Origin: Chloroflexota bacterium
Lineage (GTDB): Bacteria; Chloroflexota; Dehalococcoidia; Lucifugimonadales; Lucifugimonadaceae
Assembly (NCBI GenBank): GCA_002721615.1
Contig: PBKW01000013.1
Coordinates: forward strand, 1 to 32,331
DNA length: 32,331 nucleotides
Direction of reading: 5' to 3'
The notes beneath the pieces were generated by a model. The model worked only from the letters and a program-made list of their open reading frames with translations. It was not told the origin of the DNA and did not search any database. This document shows positions 16,748 to 31,831 of this stretch, one piece after another. Each line of letters opens with the position of its first letter. Within the stretch, counting starts at the first letter, position 1. A program made the position numbers and the translations under genes.

Positions 16748-17809
16748 CTAATTATTAGAAGTATCTGTCCCTAGTTTTAATAAATCCCAAACAACTTCAA
16801 CTTCTCTCATACTTATTGCTAATTGAGTCCCAATAACTCTACTTCCCCCAGCACTCTGCACTTGAGCAAAAACAACTCCAACTACATTTCCTTCAAAATC
16901 AATAATTGGCCCACCGCTATCTCCAGGATCTGCACCAGTATTAAATACTATCAACATTACTCCATCTTTAGTATAAGAAGAGCCAGGAAGAACTTTTAAG
17001 GTTGGTTTAATTCCATAATCTAAAGCTTTACCCATTTGTAAAATCACAGTTGTAACTACTCCAGACTTAATAACTGGAAACCCTGCAGTTCCCGTGGAAT
17101 ACCCTATCTGAACTATTTCTGTACCAGCATCCAATGAAGTAAGATATTTTCTGTCAAAAATTTTCAATGGCTCTATACCATTAAGCTTAGAATTAATTTT
17201 AACTGCTGCAAGATCTCTCTTTTTATCAACTCCATAAACTAATCCATAAACATCTTTAGATGTTCCATCTTTCTGAGGAATACTAACGATTACAGAAGAT
17301 TGATCTTTTACAACATGTTCATTAGTAATTATCCAATCTTCTTCAATAACCCATCCCGTTCCTGTAGCACCATCAGATCTAATTCTAGGAACTGAAAATC
17401 TCCATTGATTATACAAATCATTAGGTTTAATAATTTTTGGAAATATTTGAGGAGTAGCTGTAGGCTGAGGAGTAGGATCAACAAATATCTGAGGAGTAGC
17501 TGTAGGCTGAGGAGTAGGATCAATATTTATCTGAGGAGTAGCTGTAGGCTGAGGAGTAGGAGGTATTATTTCTATTATTTGAGGAGTAGCTGTAGGTTGA
17601 GGAGTAGGATCAATAAAAACCTGAGGAGTAGCTGTAGGTTGAGGAGTAGGATCAACAAATATCTGAGGGGTAGCAGTAGCAATTTTTGCTATTGCCTGAT
17701 CAACTCTAGCATCAATAGTAGCTTCCAAATTTAAATCATTTGAATTAATACATCCACTAATAAAAATTGAGATAAAAATTATTAAACTAGTTCTTAAAAA
17801 AAAATCCAT
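16748..17809 (-). CDS. Secreted trypsin-like serine protease lipoprotein with Pro/Thr-rich repeat spacer
   Basis: 353 residues. A lipoprotein signal ends at Cys20 (IFISGC). Next comes a short helical stretch, then five copies of a TATPQ...PTPQP unit (about 45-122), an extended spacer. The rest (about 130-345) is a DegP/HtrA-like S1C protease without a PDZ domain. His165 (TNEHVV), Asp199 (KRDLAAV) and Ser298 (GDPGDSGGP) make the triad; the oxyanion turn and GVVFAQ strand are also seen. It acts outside the membrane, held off the surface by the spacer. The start region is almost identical to that of pstS (see the inverted repeats). Protein quality control or degradation of external proteins are both possible. 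Confidence 0.92.
   Translation of the reverse strand: MDFFLRTSLIIFISIFISGCINSNDLNLEATIDARVDQAIAKIATATPQIFVDPTPQPTATPQVFIDPTPQPTATPQIIEIIPPTPQPTATPQINIDPTPQPTATPQIFVDPTPQPTATPQIFPKIIKPNDLYNQWRFSVPRIRSDGATGTGWVIEEDWIITNEHVVKDQSSVIVSIPQKDGTSKDVYGLVYGVDKKRDLAAVKINSKLNGIEPLKIFDRKYLTSLDAGTEIVQIGYSTGTAGFPVIKSGVVTTVILQMGKALDYGIKPTLKVLPGSSYTKDGVMLIVFNTGADPGDSGGPIIDFEGNVVGVVFAQVQSAGGSRVIGTQLAISMREVEVVWDLLKLGTDTSNN
17441..17671 (-). repeat. In-frame minisatellite coding the TATPQ...PTPQP spacer
   Basis: Five tandem units on the minus strand: four of 42 bp (14 residues) and one of 48 bp (16 residues, with IIEIIPP in the variable part). The PTPQPTATPQ core is constant and three to five residues between cores vary (IFVD, VFID, INID). 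All unit lengths are multiples of three, so copy-number change would alter spacer length without breaking the frame. Confidence 0.95.
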
Positions 17810-17844
17810 TAATATAAGTTTATCTTAAAAATATAAATTAACTA
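17777..17844 (-). repeat. Left arm of a 68-bp inverted duplication (protease start region)
   Basis: Read on the minus strand, these 68 bp match 18624-18691 on the plus strand at 64 positions, with 33 consecutive identical bases up to the ATG. The arm covers 35 bp upstream of the start codon and 33 bp from it, so it carries the 5' leader, probably the promoter, and the first codons M-x-FFLRT-x-LII of the signal peptide. Confidence 0.92.
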
Positions 17845-17930
17845 CAATATTTCTATTGAAAACTTTTAAAATCTAAGTTATTTTCAGAGATAAATTATAT
17901 ATATTTAAATATTAAATTTTTCTTATTGTT

Positions 17931-18593: not shown

Positions 18594-18623
18594 TGTAAAA
18601 ACAACATTTCTTTATAAAAAATA

Positions 18624-18691
18624 TAGTCAATTTATATTTTTAAGATAAACTTATATTAATGAATTTTTTTTTAAGAACCAATTTAATAATT
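18624..18691 (+). repeat. Right arm of the 68-bp inverted duplication (pstS start region)
   Basis: Plus-strand partner of 17777-17844, with 64 of 68 identical. It spans 35 bp before and 33 bp from the pstS ATG, including a run of nine T that is conserved in length in both arms. The four differences all look like transitions (T/C, G/A), which fits a fairly recent copy. Confidence 0.92.
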
Positions 18692-19612
18692 GCAACAATG
18701 TTTCTTGTTGTTGCTTGTGGCGGATCTAATGATCATGAAGTTGAAAATTCTTCAAATACAAAAGCTCTTTCTGGGTTAATCGAGATTGATGGTTCAAGTA
18801 CTGTATTCCCAATTACTCAAGCAGTTGCTGAAGAATTCAACAAAATTTATCCAAATGTTCAAATTCCAGTAGGGGTTTCTGGAACAGGCGGAGGAATGAA
18901 GAGATTTACTGTCGGAGAGACAAGTATTTCTAATGCCTCTAGGCCTATAAAAGATCAAGAAATAAACTCGGCTAAAGAAAACGAAATTGATTTCATTGAA
19001 ATAACTGTAGCTTACGACGGATTATCTGTAATGGTTAACCCTAAAAACACTTGGGTTGAATGTCTTACAATAGAACAGTTAAACAAGCTATGGAAACCAA
19101 ACAATCCTATTAATAAATGGAGTGATTTGGACTCATCTTGGCCAGACGAAACTATCAATCTTTACGGCCCAGGCACCGACTCTGGTACTTTTGACTACTT
19201 CACTGATGAAGTAAATGGTGACGAAGGTATTAGTCGAGCAGACTATGTGGCTAGCGAAGATGACAACGTTGTAGTTATGGGTATTTCGGGTGACAAAAAC
19301 TCATTAGGTTACTTCGGTTACGCTTATTACATTGAAAACAAAGACAAATTAAAAATAGTTCCTATTGACGGAGGCACAGGTTGTGCCACTCCATCAATGG
19401 ACACAATTGCTAACGGCTCCTACGCACCTCTTTCTAGGCCTGTCTTTATTTACGTAAATACAAAACACCTCATTAACAGACCTGAAGTAGAAGCCTTTTT
19501 GAATTTTTACTTAAACGAAGGAAGATCTTTAGTAGAAGAAGTTGGATACGTTCCACTTCCTGATTCAGAATACGATTTACAAATTAAAAATGTAATTTCT
19601 TCAATAAAATAA
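18659..19612 (+). CDS. pstS: Phosphate ABC transporter substrate-binding lipoprotein PstS
   Basis: Extracytoplasmic phosphate-binding protein, 317 residues. The lipoprotein signal ends at Cys20 (LVVACGG). Phosphate-pocket segments are visible: [11 protein letters not shown] (43-53), [12 protein letters not shown] (72-83), SNASRPI (91-97) and [12 protein letters not shown]. It is a normal length for the family. No pstCAB or phoU genes are adjacent, so the transporter core must be elsewhere. Codon use differs from all neighbours: 11 of 14 Tyr codons are TAC, and GAC, AAC and TTC are frequent. This is typical of a very highly expressed protein. The start region is shared with the protease gene. 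Stop lies 2 nt from the convergent transferase gene. Confidence 0.95.
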
Positions 19613-25729: not shown

Positions 25730-25806
25730 GGGCGGTTAGCTCAGTTGGCTAGAGCATCTGTCTTACACACAGAGGGTCGGGGGTTCGAGTCCCTCACCGC
25801 CCACCA
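25730..25806 (+). tRNA. tRNA-Val (anticodon TAC)
   Basis: 77-nt cloverleaf. Acceptor GGGCGGT/ACCGCCC, D stem GCTC/GAGC, anticodon stem TCTGT/ACAGA around CTTACAC, T arm GGGGG-TTCGAGT-CCCTC, discriminator A, CCA encoded. From the anticodon loop to the CCA and six bases beyond, it is repeated at 28340-28390, so the gene is an integration target that was kept whole. Confidence 0.97.
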
Positions 25807-25812
25807 CTAGAT
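25762..25812 (+). repeat. Direct repeat / attachment site copy 1 (3' part of intact tRNA-Val)
   Basis: 51 bp beginning at the anticodon loop (CTTACACA) and ending TAGAT after the CCA. 49 of 51 bases equal those at 28340-28390, with an exact run of 36 bp (25771-25806). Start in the anticodon loop and end just past the tRNA is the classic crossover geometry of tyrosine-recombinase elements. Confidence 0.9.
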
Positions 25813-25911
25813 ATTAAGTTCAATACTCTTTGTTACTGTTATTTCTACTGATATTTATTTAACAGTTTGACCCCATTATTGACCACAACCCAACTATTTT
25901 TAAATGATATT
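25807..25911. other. Inner left end of the tRNA-Val element
   Basis: Non-coding 105 nt between the tRNA and the 3' end of the oxidoreductase gene. It contains the TTGACCCC motif described separately and is otherwise A+T-rich without hairpins. Confidence 0.5.
25867..25890 (+). repeat. TTGACCCC motif, copy 1
   Basis: 24 bp, TTGACCCC-ATTATTGACC-ACAACC, matching 28223-28246 at 20 positions in the same orientation. Each copy has two TGACC blocks 12-13 bp apart. It lies 54 bp inside the left repeat and is a candidate accessory binding site of the recombinase that moved the element. Confidence 0.5.
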
Positions 25912-26907
25912 TTACTTAATCTTAGGAGAAATTACCGATTGAATTATAGTAAGAGAAGATTGAATACTTTCATTAAATTGTTTAATTGAAAAATTTCTTT
26001 TATTCGATAATTCTGTAATAAAAAAATTCACTGATTCTTCTAAAGATTTTTCTGTTAAGTTTTTTTCAATTTTTTTTAATATTCTTTTTTTAGGGCTGAC
26101 AAATAATCCTTGTTTATTGAACGTTTCACGAGGATTGAATAAATATATTTTATCCTCATTAAATTCTATTATCGCATCAGTAAAATAAATTACTATATTA
26201 TTAGAATAAGGACTTGCATAACTTAGCAAAATTGACGAAGAAACATTTTTTTCAAAATCTATATATATATTTGCGGTATCATAAACTTTTCTATCTGATA
26301 TAGAATTTAAATTTATCTGAGCATTGATTGATTTTCCGAAAAAATGCTCAAGTAAATTTATGTAGTGAATTCCAAGGTTACCTGCAATAGTTTGAAAAAT
26401 ATTTTCTTTCTTTGATCTCCAATTATTTTTGAACTCAATATTGTATGCCAACCCATGAGTAATTCTTATTGAAACATTAAATGGTTTTCCATATATATTT
26501 TCTTTTAAAATTTCATCAATTTCTTTATAGAGTGTAGATTTTTTGAAATTAAAATTAAAATAAATTTTTCTTTTATCTTTTTGAGACAAATTATTTAAGA
26601 AATTATATTCATCTAAATCTACACAAGCTGGTTTTTCACAAAATATTGCTGTATCAGATTTAAGAAAAGTCTTTATATAAGAAACATGGCTCTCATTTTC
26701 TGAAGAAATAACAATTCCATTTAGATTTAATAAATCAGATAAATCAGATGTAAAATATGCTTTTTTTATCTCATTATTAATAGATAAATCTTTTGCTACC
26801 CTAAAATCTCTACAAAAAACAATAACTTTGGAAACTTTACTGTTTTTTACCATTAGGTCAAAAAGTTTCTTACTATGCCCTTTATATCCAATTATTCCAA
26901 TATCCAT
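25912..26907 (-). CDS. Gfo/Idh/MocA-family oxidoreductase
   Basis: 331 residues. The N-terminal Rossmann domain has GIIGYKGHS (4-12) for NAD(P), ISSENESHVSYI (68-78) and the family Lys in FCEKPA (89-94). The C-terminal alpha/beta domain includes GNLGIHYINLLEHFFG, the G-x-x-H-x-x-N/D-x-x segment with the catalytic His. Such enzymes oxidise or reduce sugar hydroxyls, often on UDP- or inositol-type substrates in surface polysaccharide synthesis. The gene follows the radical SAM gene by 13 nt and lies inside the tRNA-Val element. No Shine-Dalgarno is visible. Substrate unknown. Confidence 0.87.
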   Translation of the reverse strand: MDIGIIGYKGHSKKLFDLMVKNSKVSKVIVFCRDFRVAKDLSINNEIKKAYFTSDLSDLLNLNGIVISSENESHVSYIKTFLKSDTAIFCEKPACVDLDEYNFLNNLSQKDKRKIYFNFNFKKSTLYKEIDEILKENIYGKPFNVSIRITHGLAYNIEFKNNWRSKKENIFQTIAGNLGIHYINLLEHFFGKSINAQINLNSISDRKVYDTANIYIDFEKNVSSSILLSYASPYSNNIVIYFTDAIIEFNEDKIYLFNPRETFNKQGLFVSPKKRILKKIEKNLTEKSLEESVNFFITELSNKRNFSIKQFNESIQSSLTIIQSVISPKIK

Positions 26908-26920
26908 TTTAATAAAGAAA

Positions 26921-28090
26921 TTAACAACTATTACATCTATTACAAGGGCTTAAGGTTTTTCTTTTTTCTTGTAAATGTACAGTTCTGTATTCATTATATT
27001 CATTGGATGTCCAAATATCTGTTATCGTATTATCCTTAATGTTCCATTTTGATAATTCAGATTTATAATCATAGTCACAAGGGTTCACTTTTCCATCATG
27101 CCATACAAACATTCTAAGCCATAATTCTGGACATCTGGTTTTAATGTTATTGATATTATTTTCATATGAATTTTCCCAAGGAATATAGTTTACAAAAGAA
27201 ACCATATCTACTAAATCTCCCCATTTGTTTTTCATATCTTCAACATTTTGTTTTTGATTAATTTTTACTCCACTTATTCTTACTATTTTATCTTCTCTTG
27301 AATAATGTTTAGTGCGAATATCATTGAATAATTCAAGATTTTTTTGAACTTTTTCAAAATTTCCTCCAACTCTAATTTTTTCATATTCAATTTTATCCCT
27401 CGCATCGACTGAAAACACTATTGTTTGAAGATCACTAGATAGAATAGAATGAATAAGATTTTCATTTAATCTAGATGCATTTGTATTCATTTTTAATGCC
27501 AAAAATTTTCCTTCACAATAATTTAACATATCAACAAAATTTTTATGTAAAGTAGGCTCTCCTCTTGACGCAAAAGTAACAGCTTCTATTTTTCCAGTAA
27601 TTTCATCAATTGTTTTTTTGAAAATATCCATAGACATTAATCCCATGAATCCATTAGATTTATGAGAAAAAGATTGATCAATTTGGAAACACATTACACA
27701 TCTAAAATTGCATATAGATGTAGGTTCTATTTGTAAACATGGAGGGTATTCATCAACTAAGTTTAATTTTGGATAAATATTATATTTATATCTATATACA
27801 AAGTATCTAGCCAAATTAATATTTGAAATCTTTTTTAATTCTACGATTTCATGTTCTTTGAGCAACATATCTTCTTTTTCTAAAGAGATATTTTTAATCA
27901 ATTTATTGTAAGAAATTATTAATTTATCAATTACTTCAGAATCTTTTTTGCTAAGATTATATGTCTTAATTCTCTCTTTTACATAAGATAATTTTTCAAG
28001 AACAAAATCAATGCTTTCTTTTAGGTCTACTCCAGTAAAAATACTATGAAAACCTTTATAATAATTTGATGGGATTATTTTTTCTGCCAT
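26921..28090 (-). CDS. Radical SAM/SPASM-domain protein
   Basis: 389 residues. About 110 helical residues precede the radical SAM core. The cluster motif is Cys127-x3-Cys131-x2-Cys134 within ICNFRCVMC, then FASRGEPTLHKNF as the GGEP-equivalent (GEP). The C-terminal SPASM-type half has MFVWHDGKVNPCDYDY and ends SPCNRCNSC with Cys383, Cys386 and Cys389, which would hold auxiliary clusters. This class, seen in O-antigen and other glycan clusters, modifies sugars or other small molecules by radical chemistry; the reaction here is not known. The start ATG 28090 lacks a Shine-Dalgarno and lies in an A+T-only stretch. First gene of a two-gene transcript in the element. Confidence 0.88.
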   Translation of the reverse strand: MAEKIIPSNYYKGFHSIFTGVDLKESIDFVLEKLSYVKERIKTYNLSKKDSEVIDKLIISYNKLIKNISLEKEDMLLKEHEIVELKKISNINLARYFVYRYKYNIYPKLNLVDEYPPCLQIEPTSICNFRCVMCFQIDQSFSHKSNGFMGLMSMDIFKKTIDEITGKIEAVTFASRGEPTLHKNFVDMLNYCEGKFLALKMNTNASRLNENLIHSILSSDLQTIVFSVDARDKIEYEKIRVGGNFEKVQKNLELFNDIRTKHYSREDKIVRISGVKINQKQNVEDMKNKWGDLVDMVSFVNYIPWENSYENNINNIKTRCPELWLRMFVWHDGKVNPCDYDYKSELSKWNIKDNTITDIWTSNEYNEYRTVHLQEKRKTLSPCNRCNSC

Positions 28091-28222
28091 TAATATATTT
28101 ATTTGTTTAAATTATCATAATCTTAATTTAAACAAATTCATAGATTTTCAGGATGCAATATAAGGTTTATCCGAGAGCAGTTAAGGGTTATTAATTAAGA
28201 GAATTAATCACAGTAAAACCTA

Positions 28223-28246
28223 TTGACCCCAATTCTGACCCCAACC
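28223..28246 (+). repeat. TTGACCCC motif, copy 2
   Basis: TTGACCCC-AATTCTGACC-CCAACC, the same orientation as copy 1 and 94 bp before the right tRNA repeat. The octamer TGACCCC is repeated within the copy at 13-bp spacing. Confidence 0.5.
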
Positions 28247-28339
28247 TATAATAACATTAATAGACATTGGTGGATAAGGTAAAGTTAAACTAAGTAGAAA
28301 AGGCTACATTGTTAAACGTTATTGGCCCCAGAATTATAA

Positions 28340-28390
28340 CTTACACAAAGAGGGTCGGGGGTTCGAGTCCCTCACCGCCCACCAGTAGAT
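28340..28390 (+). pseudogene. tRNA-Val 3' fragment (second attachment-site copy)
   Basis: Bases from anticodon loop to CCA of tRNA-Val plus TAGAT, without any acceptor or D-arm sequence upstream (the preceding DNA is unrelated). Differences from the intact gene are A for C at 28348 and G for C at 28385. It cannot fold as a tRNA and is best read as the far junction of an integrated element. Confidence 0.92.
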
Positions 28391-28421: not shown

Positions 28422-29558
28422 ATGAGCAAAACCAAAAAAACAAGAATCAGAATAGCACAGCCTTGGATCACAGAACATGAAATACAATATGTTAATGATG
28501 CAGTAAAAAATGGTTGGGGAAATCATAGTTCGGATTATATTAAGAAACTAGAAAAAGAATTTTCATCATTACATAAAACACAATATGCTGTAGCTACATC
28601 TAGTTGTACTGGAGCAACTCATATGGCCCTTAAAGCAATGGGTATAGGAAGTGGAGATGAAGTTATATTGCCAGAAATTACTTGGGCTAGTTGTCCATCT
28701 GCTGTAATTTATACTGGTGCAAAGCCTGTTTTTGTTGATGTAAAAGAAAACACATGGTGTATTGATCCGAAAAAAATTTTAGAAGCAATAACACCAAAAA
28801 CTAAAGTTATTATGCCTGTTCATGTTTATGGAAATGTTTGTGAAATGGATGAAATAATGAAAATTGCTGATCGTTTTGATTTAAAAGTTATAGAAGATGC
28901 TGCAGAAGCACTTGGATCTGAATATAAAGATCAAAAGGTAGGATCTATTGGAGATTGTGGAGTTTTTTCATTCCATGGAACTAAAATGGCTACATCTGGG
29001 GAAGGAGGTATATTTATTACAAATAATAAGAAATTATTTGATGATTTTAACATTCTACATGATCAAGGCAGAATCCCAGAAGAAGAAAAATTTTTTTACC
29101 CACATAAATTAGGTTATAAATACAAAATTTCTAATTTACAAGCTGCAATAGCATGTGCTCAAATAGAACGTTTAGAAGAATTAGTAAATAAGAAAAACCA
29201 AATTTTTTATTGGTACAAAAATCTTTTGCAAGATATAAATTTCATTGATATGAATCATCAACAAGAATATGTTAAAAATTCCTATTGGATGCCAACCATT
29301 GTATTTGATAAATCAGTAAATATTAATAGAGATGATTTGATGAAATATCTTGATAAAAAAGGAATAGACAGTAGGCCATTTTTTTATCCTTTATCATCTC
29401 TTCCTATGTTTAAAAAAGTAAAAAAGAATAATATTTCATATAGTTTATCTAATAGAGGAATTTATTTACCTAGTGCATTTTATTTATCTAAAGAAGATAT
29501 TAATTATATCGTAGAAGCCATCAAGGAATATCTATTTGATAAACCTTTAAGAGTTTAA
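28422..29558 (+). CDS. DegT/DnrJ/EryC1/StrS-family PLP aminotransferase
   Basis: 378 residues. A cytoplasmic PLP enzyme that converts a keto-sugar nucleotide to an amino sugar. It shows the full family pattern: ATSSCTGATHMALKA (58-72), DEVILPEITWAS (79-90), PVHVYGN (132-138), VIEDAAEALGSEY (156-168) and FSFHGTKMATSGEGG (182-196), where Lys188 binds PLP. The C-terminal part has the family's RPFFYPLSSLP. First gene of a plus-strand glycan cluster; the next gene is a formyltransferase. The ATG has no Shine-Dalgarno; TATAAA lies 9 nt upstream of it, so the mRNA may have almost no leader. Confidence 0.93.
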   Translation: MSKTKKTRIRIAQPWITEHEIQYVNDAVKNGWGNHSSDYIKKLEKEFSSLHKTQYAVATSSCTGATHMALKAMGIGSGDEVILPEITWASCPSAVIYTGAKPVFVDVKENTWCIDPKKILEAITPKTKVIMPVHVYGNVCEMDEIMKIADRFDLKVIEDAAEALGSEYKDQKVGSIGDCGVFSFHGTKMATSGEGGIFITNNKKLFDDFNILHDQGRIPEEEKFFYPHKLGYKYKISNLQAAIACAQIERLEELVNKKNQIFYWYKNLLQDINFIDMNHQQEYVKNSYWMPTIVFDKSVNINRDDLMKYLDKKGIDSRPFFYPLSSLPMFKKVKKNNISYSLSNRGIYLPSAFYLSKEDINYIVEAIKEYLFDKPLRV

Positions 29559-29576
29559 GGGCAAGTTATAGATAAC

Positions 29577-30398
29577 ATGATTTTAATTTTTTCCGGTTTT
29601 AACAAAAGATATAAATACATTAATAACATCTTGCTAAATAAATTCCCAAACTCTTCTATAATAATTCAAAAAGATTTTAAAGGTGACCATAAAGGAAAAT
29701 ATAATAATGATCCTAGGTATGACAAAGAAACAATAAAATTATTTGAAAACCATATCCAAGAAAGAGATAAAACAGAAAAAAAATATTACCCTGATGATAA
29801 ATTCTATTTAAATGAAAATACTAAATATTTATATACAACATCAAAAGAATTAAATTCTGAAAAAACAATAAAATTTGTTAAATCACTAAAACCTAAAATG
29901 GTTTTTGTTTTTGGAGTAGGTTTATTAAATTATCAATTGTTACAATGTTTTGAAAAAATATCAGTAATAAATTTACATTTTGGAATTACCCCAAAATATA
30001 GAGGATCAAATACTCTTTTATGGCCACTATATCTAAATGACCCTGGTCATTTAGGAATAACACTACACCAAATAGACAGCAAAATTGATCATGGGCCGAT
30101 TTATCATCAACAAACAACCAAGTTTAGTAAAAAAGATTCTATCCACGAAATATTTTGTAAAACAATTATTCAAGCTATTAATCCAACAGTTGAATTAATA
30201 GAAAAAATAATCAATAAAACAATTGCTGCTCCAGTAAAAATTAGTACACCTGGAACAATATATAATAATGAAGAATTTACTCCAGAACATTTAAAATCTA
30301 TTTATAAATCATTAAAAAATGGACTTCTAATAAAATACTTAGATAAAAAATCTAACTTTGAAAAACCGAAATTAATTAGTGTTTTAAAACAAAATTAA
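29577..30398 (+). CDS. Formyltransferase-family protein, probable amino-sugar N-formyltransferase
   Basis: 273 residues. The N-terminal 75 are unusual for the family and Lys/Asp-rich. The formyl_trans_N core follows: VFVFGVGLLNYQLL (109-122), then INLHFGITPKYRG (131-143) and GITLHQIDSKIDHGPIYHQ (160-178). The catalytic triad Asn132, His134, Asp171 is complete. Proteins of this type transfer formyl from 10-formyl-THF to methionyl-tRNA, or in glycan clusters to a dideoxy-amino sugar nucleotide. The neighbour is a sugar aminotransferase, the OB-fold C-domain of methionyl-tRNA formyltransferase is absent, and the second option is preferred. Confidence 0.82.
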   Translation: MILIFSGFNKRYKYINNILLNKFPNSSIIIQKDFKGDHKGKYNNDPRYDKETIKLFENHIQERDKTEKKYYPDDKFYLNENTKYLYTTSKELNSEKTIKFVKSLKPKMVFVFGVGLLNYQLLQCFEKISVINLHFGITPKYRGSNTLLWPLYLNDPGHLGITLHQIDSKIDHGPIYHQQTTKFSKKDSIHEIFCKTIIQAINPTVELIEKIINKTIAAPVKISTPGTIYNNEEFTPEHLKSIYKSLKNGLLIKYLDKKSNFEKPKLISVLKQN

Positions 30399-30415
30399 AA
30401 TTAAAATTTTATCTT

Positions 30416-31831
30416 ATGAAAAATATAACTTTTGTCTTCAGGATAACATCTCTATTTAGTTATTCATCTTCTATAATTGATGAATTATGCAGTCAAAAAA
30501 ACAATGTGACTCTAGTTTTTATGAAAGAAAATTCTAATGATTCAACAATTTATAAAATTCGCACAAACAAAGACACAGGTTTTAAAGAACTTATCACCGA
30601 AAACCCAATGTTAGACAGACAAGAAAAAGTTATTTCTGAATCAAAAAATTTAAAAATTATCAATGGTATTGAAAGAAAAGATATATGGAAATATTTACTT
30701 AGAATTTTTAGAGAAACAATATCCTTAATTAGTTATTTTCAAAGAAATGATAGAAGTGTTTTTCTATATAATCAAAAAAGATATGTCCCTAAAATTATTA
30801 ACTATTGTTTATCCTATACAATTTATCAAAAACATCTTCTTCCTATAAATTTAATATATAAAATTTTTAAAAAAATCCATCAAATTATTCCAGCTTCAAA
30901 ATCCATCAAATTATTTATTAAATCTCTAAATACCAATTGTGTAGTAGTAGTTGGAGGAAATTGGCCTACGAATCATAACTATTTTTCTAGCGAAATAGAT
31001 TATATAAAAGCATGTTCAAAACTAAAAATCCCTTCTGTTATCCAAGTTGTAAGCTGGGATAATTTGACTGCAAGAGGAATATATCATTATTCACCTAATT
31101 TGATGCTTGCTTGGAATCAAATTCATAAAGAAGAAGCTTTTAGAATACATAATATACCTAAAGAAAAAATTAAAATTACCGGATCACCTGTAATGGATAA
31201 ATGGTTTGATCAACAAAATAATCTAAGAAAAAAAGAGAATTTTTTTCATGATTTAAATATTAACCCTAATATTCCTCTTATTACATATCTTGGATCTTCA
31301 AAAAATATTGTTGGCCGTAATGAAAAAGTTATAGTAGAAAAGATATTCAAAATTTTAAAGAAAAAAGGAATTCAAATGATTATTAGGCCTCATGGTGGTA
31401 ATTCTGGTCAATTCAAAAGCTTAGCATCTCAAATTCCTGTAATTCCTCTACAAGGTGACTTACCAGACACAAATAAATCAGAAAAGTTAATGATAGAAAC
31501 TTTAATTTATTCTTCTGTATGTATAGGGATTAATACTACTGCTATGATAGATTCTGTAGTATTAGGAACGCCTTGTATTACATTAATTAAAAAAGAATTT
31601 GACTTAGGTCAAAGCTTGACTGCGCATTTTAAAAATATAAGAAAAAACAATATCTTTCCGGAAGTATTTAATGAAGAAGATGCTTGTGAAAAAATAGAAA
31701 AAATCATTCATGAAGGCAAAAGCTTTATCAATAAAAATGAAATAGAAAATTTCTGCAGACCACAAGGAAATCAAATTTCATCTGGAAAAATGGCTAGTCA
31801 ATTTATTCTATCTTTACTCAAATCAAATTAA
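30416..31831 (+). CDS. GT-B-like transferase of the surface-glycan cluster
   Basis: 471 residues, paralogous to the minus-strand gene at 19615-21072. Matching blocks are VSWDNLTARGIYHYSPNLML then AWN, IKITGSPVMDKWF, ITYLGSSKN, QMIIRPHGG and CIGINTTAMIDSVVLGTPCITL. The arrangement is that of GT-B enzymes, with the nucleotide donor bound by the C-terminal half (Ser/Thr and Asp after the GxNT turn). The N-terminal part (about 1-150) is Arg/Lys-rich with a hydrophobic stretch but no clear membrane helix. It would add a sugar or sugar phosphate in surface polymer assembly. The TAA overlaps that of the converging family 2 transferase by 4 nt. Confidence 0.75.
   Translation: MKNITFVFRITSLFSYSSSIIDELCSQKNNVTLVFMKENSNDSTIYKIRTNKDTGFKELITENPMLDRQEKVISESKNLKIINGIERKDIWKYLLRIFRETISLISYFQRNDRSVFLYNQKRYVPKIINYCLSYTIYQKHLLPINLIYKIFKKIHQIIPASKSIKLFIKSLNTNCVVVVGGNWPTNHNYFSSEIDYIKACSKLKIPSVIQVVSWDNLTARGIYHYSPNLMLAWNQIHKEEAFRIHNIPKEKIKITGSPVMDKWFDQQNNLRKKENFFHDLNINPNIPLITYLGSSKNIVGRNEKVIVEKIFKILKKKGIQMIIRPHGGNSGQFKSLASQIPVIPLQGDLPDTNKSEKLMIETLIYSSVCIGINTTAMIDSVVLGTPCITLIKKEFDLGQSLTAHFKNIRKNNIFPEVFNEEDACEKIEKIIHEGKSFINKNEIENFCRPQGNQISSGKMASQFILSLLKSN

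Follow-up and report, generated by a model that had tools for sequence, protein, structure and literature searches.

A 2.6-kb tRNA-Val segment with arm-like paired repeats, sugar-type genes and no integrase in a Chloroflexota bacterium: a candidate helper-dependent integrative element

The DNA investigated (hereafter the window) is a stretch of 32,331 nucleotides from a Chloroflexota bacterium. It carries a functional tRNA-Val(TAC) gene which, together with a second copy of the 3' part of that gene, bounds a segment of 2578 bp. According to the list of open reading frames, a Gfo/Idh/MocA oxidoreductase gene and a radical SAM/SPASM gene are the only genes inside this segment. The features of the locus, in positions of the window, are as follows.

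25730-25806, plus strand: functional copy of tRNA-Val(TAC), called by ARAGORN; its 3' part, from the anticodon loop on, is part of attL
25762-25812, plus strand: attL core repeat, beginning with base 1 of the anticodon loop
25867-25890, plus strand: left pair of arm-type sites, TTGACCCCATTA/TTGACCACAACC, 12-bp period, 85 bp after the start of the T-loop
25912-26907, minus strand: Gfo/Idh/MocA oxidoreductase (Pfam match over the cut-off; ORF intact)
26921-28090, minus strand: radical SAM/SPASM protein (Pfam match over the cut-off, orthologues and alignment; ORF intact)
28223-28246, plus strand: right pair of arm-type sites, TTGACCCCAATT/CTGACCCCAACC, 137 bp before the T-loop of the tRNA fragment
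28340-28390, plus strand: attR, a 3' fragment of tRNA-Val
28422-31831, plus strand: flanking genes outside the element, comprising a DegT aminotransferase, a formyltransferase and a GT-like ORF (ORF list, Pfam)

The radical SAM/SPASM gene is the first of a two-gene unit and lies 13 bp upstream of the Gfo gene. An earlier note on this DNA had described two minus-strand genes with plus-strand glycan genes to their right; this arrangement was found, but the glycan-type block does not stay on the plus strand, continuing after 31831 on the minus strand with a GT2-like gene (L034:7829-8770). The G+C content of the segment is 25%, compared with 29% for the window. As to lineage, the 16S piece of this genome differs from two SAR202 probes by 3-4 mismatches, and its F420, enolase-superfamily and (TPTP)n proteins give no more than a hint of SAR202-like Chloroflexota. 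Elsewhere in the window, tandem 42-48-bp repeats (17391-17721) encode the (PTPQPTATPQ)n linker of a secreted trypsin-like protease, and an 85-nt inverted repeat (17777-17861 and 18607-18691, 88%) covers the starts of two divergent genes for secreted proteins (16748-17809, minus strand, and 18659-19612, plus strand).

The earlier note had also claimed that the segment is bounded by a 51-bp repeat beginning at the anticodon loop, and this repeat was re-found at both ends. The two copies are identical at 49 of 51 bases; the mismatches fall at positions 9 and 46 and enclose an exact run of 36 bp. Their similarity extends to 59 bp (92%). The anticodon loop at the start of the repeat reads CTTACAC. 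The fragment at 28340 is not a tRNA gene, and one base of its anticodon stem would mispair. Repetition of a tRNA 3' part over 51 bp is not due to chance. The element is present as a single copy; neither a second copy nor an excised circle was seen.

The position of the tRNA-Val gene is orthologous in six relatives of the same genus, all of which keep the three TIM-Trx-Sco genes upstream of it. Neither the tRNA fragment nor either of the two cargo genes was found at tRNA-Val in these six genomes, so that the comparison proposed in the earlier note showed the element to be absent and other DNA to lie downstream. A phosphonate-type gene cluster follows the tRNA directly in L038 and L039, an HTH/cupin gene comes first in L040 and L042, and in L043 7 kb of glycan-type genes precede the phosphonate-type cluster. 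The flank of tRNA-Val is variable within the genus. A precise empty site, with 25762-25812 joined to the DNA after 28390, was not found among the six relatives. The cargo of L043, which occupies this site with no tRNA fragment beside it, would fit an origin in which no site-specific recombination took place and the repeat arose by duplication of the tRNA 3' part, by homologous recombination or by an assembly join through the 51-bp repeat. The contig does derive from a draft of 27 contigs, and some assemblers can be misled by a repeat as short as 51 bp. Such an origin is nevertheless extremely unlikely, given the arm-like pairs lying at both ends at the offset seen in integrase elements and the two sister elements of this genome, which likewise start at the anticodon loop.

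The arm-like pairs are situated just inside the ends of the element (TTGACCCCATTATTGACCAC at 25867 and TTGACCCCAATTCTGACCCC at 28223), each with a period of 12 bp. These paired TTGACCCC-type repeats look like the arm sites of tyrosine integrases and may be bound by such an enzyme. Three of the four arm units match the consensus, as do both cores, while the left arm carries one C-to-A change. In a circularised element the arms would be 222 bp apart (117 + 105) around the tRNA core. A pattern covering these arms and those of the tRNA-Pro element described below occurred four times in 1.46 Mb, always at the ends of these two elements, and was absent from nine other genomes of the genus; as the pattern had been built from those four sites, only its absence elsewhere counts as independent evidence. 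The right arm was also considered as the tail of an integrase gene, since its reverse complement reads GWGQNWGQ-stop and this motif does occur in the integrase C-termini of some phages; this was rejected, as only about 100 bp remain to attR and no gene fits.

Independent support for the arm reading came from phage and order-wide comparisons. Of 120 IMG/VR contigs, 16 had the exact motif at a distance of 50-170 bp from a tRNA T-loop, compared with 2.3% at random positions (p ~2e-8), and in many cases it adjoined a tyrosine integrase. In L165, L197, L203 and L221 the spacing from arm to arm across the tRNA core was 212-222 bp, against 222 bp in the window element; L221 is a phage attP with TTTGACCCCAATTTTGACCCCAAT on both sides. 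In a fifth contig, L215, both copies lay on one side, separated by 342 bp. Within the order, integrases related to that of the tRNA-Pro element adjoin tRNAs, and an arm-like pair, scored as an exact 9-base pair with a period of 10-13 bp at 60-115 bp past the T-loop, was present at 10 of 17 tRNAs adjoining an integrase but at only 2 of 73 control tRNAs, one of these two being the tRNA-Pro element itself. Arm units such as TTGACAGCCAAG and TTTGCCGACAT vary from one element of the order to another, as would be the case if every unit were matched to the integrase of its own element. In eight loci of the order the integrase, convergent with the tRNA, has its stop codon 2-24 bp past the arm; in the window the Gfo stop codon lies 26 bp beyond the left arm, indicating that the cargo occupies the integrase slot. 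Arm-like pairs were also carried by other tRNA-Val genes in two other genera (G049, G028), and in G089 and G049 such pairs stood at tRNAs for which neither a neighbouring integrase nor a second end was found in the sequence examined.

An integrase was looked for in the element and in the genome. A blastx comparison of the element with 14 integrases gave nothing significant, and an integrase pseudogene within it was accordingly rejected. The genome contains only one element-type integrase, located elsewhere, in agreement with the earlier description of the segment as tRNA-targeted and without an integrase of its own; two further tyrosine recombinases look like XerC/D-type host genes by size, match and neighbours. 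Other members of the genus have three non-Xer tyrosine recombinases, which were considered as integrases of mobile elements, and the evidence was against this. Two of them adjoin tRNA-Met, where their neighbours agree between the two genomes and attR is missing, and thus seem to be resident genes and not mobile ones; near the third (G006) there is no tRNA.

The main rival to a mobile element is a fixed remnant: a tRNA-Val element that encoded an integrase in the ordinary way would have lost this gene through a deletion, kept the sugar genes and become immobile. The missing integrase remnant and the single copy are compatible with it, as are the 2 differences in 51 bases between attL and attR, the one changed base of the left arm and the arm-like pairs without a nearby integrase in G089 and G049. 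The changed arm base and the mispaired stem base of attR indicate that some decay has occurred. However, the consensus is still matched by both cores and by all but one of the four arm units, both ORFs are intact, and the cassette stops where an integrase would, at 26 bp from the arm. We therefore regard a fossil as possible, though rather unlikely.

The one element-type integrase belongs to a 5.1-kb element at tRNA-Pro(TGG), bounded by perfect 50-bp repeats (G000:C17:37754-42903; L037:7755-12904), which also contains an HNH/endonuclease-VII-like protein and four small ORFs. Its arms have the same layout as those of the tRNA-Val element but a different unit (TGYCCCCCTAT). As the sole enzyme of its kind in the genome, and with the architecture, period and offsets of the arms so alike (T-loop to left arm 84 vs 85 bp), this integrase might be thought to mobilise the tRNA-Val element in trans. 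Yet the arm units differ (TGYCCCCCTATT vs TTGACCCCAATT), the core is that of tRNA-Pro and not of tRNA-Val, and arm recognition by integrases is usually specific, so that this source of help is very unlikely. A helper combining a tRNA-Val core with TTGACCCC arms gave no match in named genomes when searched with one exact same-strand pattern, and phages at the same tRNA-Val core use GTAAGC-type arms instead. The genome is about 90% complete, so a helper could have been missed. A mini-element of 0.73 kb at tRNA-Gly(TCC) (G000:C10, L114, minus strand) also begins at the anticodon loop; an HNH endonuclease gene is its only gene, and an integrase is lacking. Also, tRNA-like 3' fragments with no tRNA gene in the stretch read were observed at G000:C11:30689 (resembling tRNA-Asn) and C21:19826, and might be scars of other elements.

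The radical SAM gene was absent from all other genomes of the genus, and a scan of genome contigs with its protein as query found no relative. Close orthologues (41-47% identity) were present in only four other genomes of the 250 in the order. The same Gfo gene follows in two of the four: in G127, where the pair lies just beyond a tRNA-Gly fragment, and in G117, where it lies within a glycan island adjoining tRNA-Leu. In G074 the radical SAM gene is about 0.9 kb from tRNA-Leu, and in G163 no tRNA was found near it. The G127 locus (G127:C110, L290:3372-8590) consists of tRNA-Gly(TCC) with a 51-bp copy (98%) 5.2 kb downstream, the radical SAM/Gfo pair beginning 300 bp past the copy; among the ORFs between tRNA and copy no integrase was seen. 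The nearest solved sequence relative of the radical SAM protein is the aminocyclitol dehydrogenase BtrN, for the SPASM part only. An AlphaFold model of the protein was set aside (mean pLDDT 57). A two-step oxidation and reduction of a sugar by the two enzymes is a reasonable inference.

Taken together, the locus has the features of a tyrosine-integrase tRNA element, with direct repeats of the 3' part at both ends and, by sequence pattern, arm-type pairs of phage-like spacing, but no integrase of its own. It is probably a non-autonomous integrative element, and any movement would depend on a helper integrase. A tyrosine integrase would have inserted the 2.58-kb element into the 3' half of tRNA-Val(TAC), with recombination taking place in the anticodon loop. 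The element appears to keep the full set of DNA sites, with cores at both ends and paired arms inside both, but it lacks an integrase, in whose slot the radical SAM/SPASM and Gfo/Idh/MocA cassette sits, and it would thus be non-autonomous. An integrase reading TTGACCCC-type arms and the tRNA-Val core, supplied by another element, could then excise and re-insert it in trans, or alternatively in cis after the arrival of a second element next to it in tandem, as CIMEs do.

Such a structure suggests a route by which a genome with a single element-type integrase could gain and exchange surface-sugar genes, namely as small att-bounded cassettes free of an enzyme. The anatomy of arm plus core also provides a search rule, i.e. 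pairs of 10-13-bp repeats situated about 60-115 bp beyond a tRNA T-loop with no integrase behind them, which would catch elements missed by island finders that rely on integrases. That streamlined bacteria harbour a wider class of minimal tRNA elements dependent on helpers, with cargo replacing the integrase between intact arms, sugar modules swapped at tRNAs by the integrases of other elements, and the radical SAM/Gfo pairs by tRNA-Gly (G127) and tRNA-Leu (G117) as earlier stops, is conceivable but doubtful.

Among known systems, the earlier note had likened the element to tycheposons, described as cargo elements that span 4-200 kb and carry a tyrosine recombinase (PMC10872708). Both are tRNA-targeted, and tycheposons likewise carry cargo in streamlined marine bacteria, but the label fails on size (2.58 kb, two ORFs) and on the missing recombinase; a CIME-like or non-autonomous element fits better. 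CIMEs keep attL and attR and encode neither integration nor transfer genes (PMC5704250), as is the case here. They are, however, described as decayed ICEs or IMEs, whereas the window element shows no sign of conjugation, has no tandem helper in its contig and carries a cargo that ends exactly at the integrase position. Fifteen ssrA islands of Dehalococcoides without an integration module have been reported and proposed as possible cis-mobilizable elements (PMC3146451). They too have a cargo bounded by the 3' repeat of an RNA gene and no integrase, but their target is tmRNA and their enzyme a serine recombinase, in contrast to tRNA-Val and tyrosine-integrase-like arms. MITEs and CALINs, the helper-dependent, non-autonomous forms of IS elements and integrons (PMC11389934), similarly combine sites and cargo without an enzyme, but belong to other recombination systems, whereas the window element appears to have a phage-type attP with arms.
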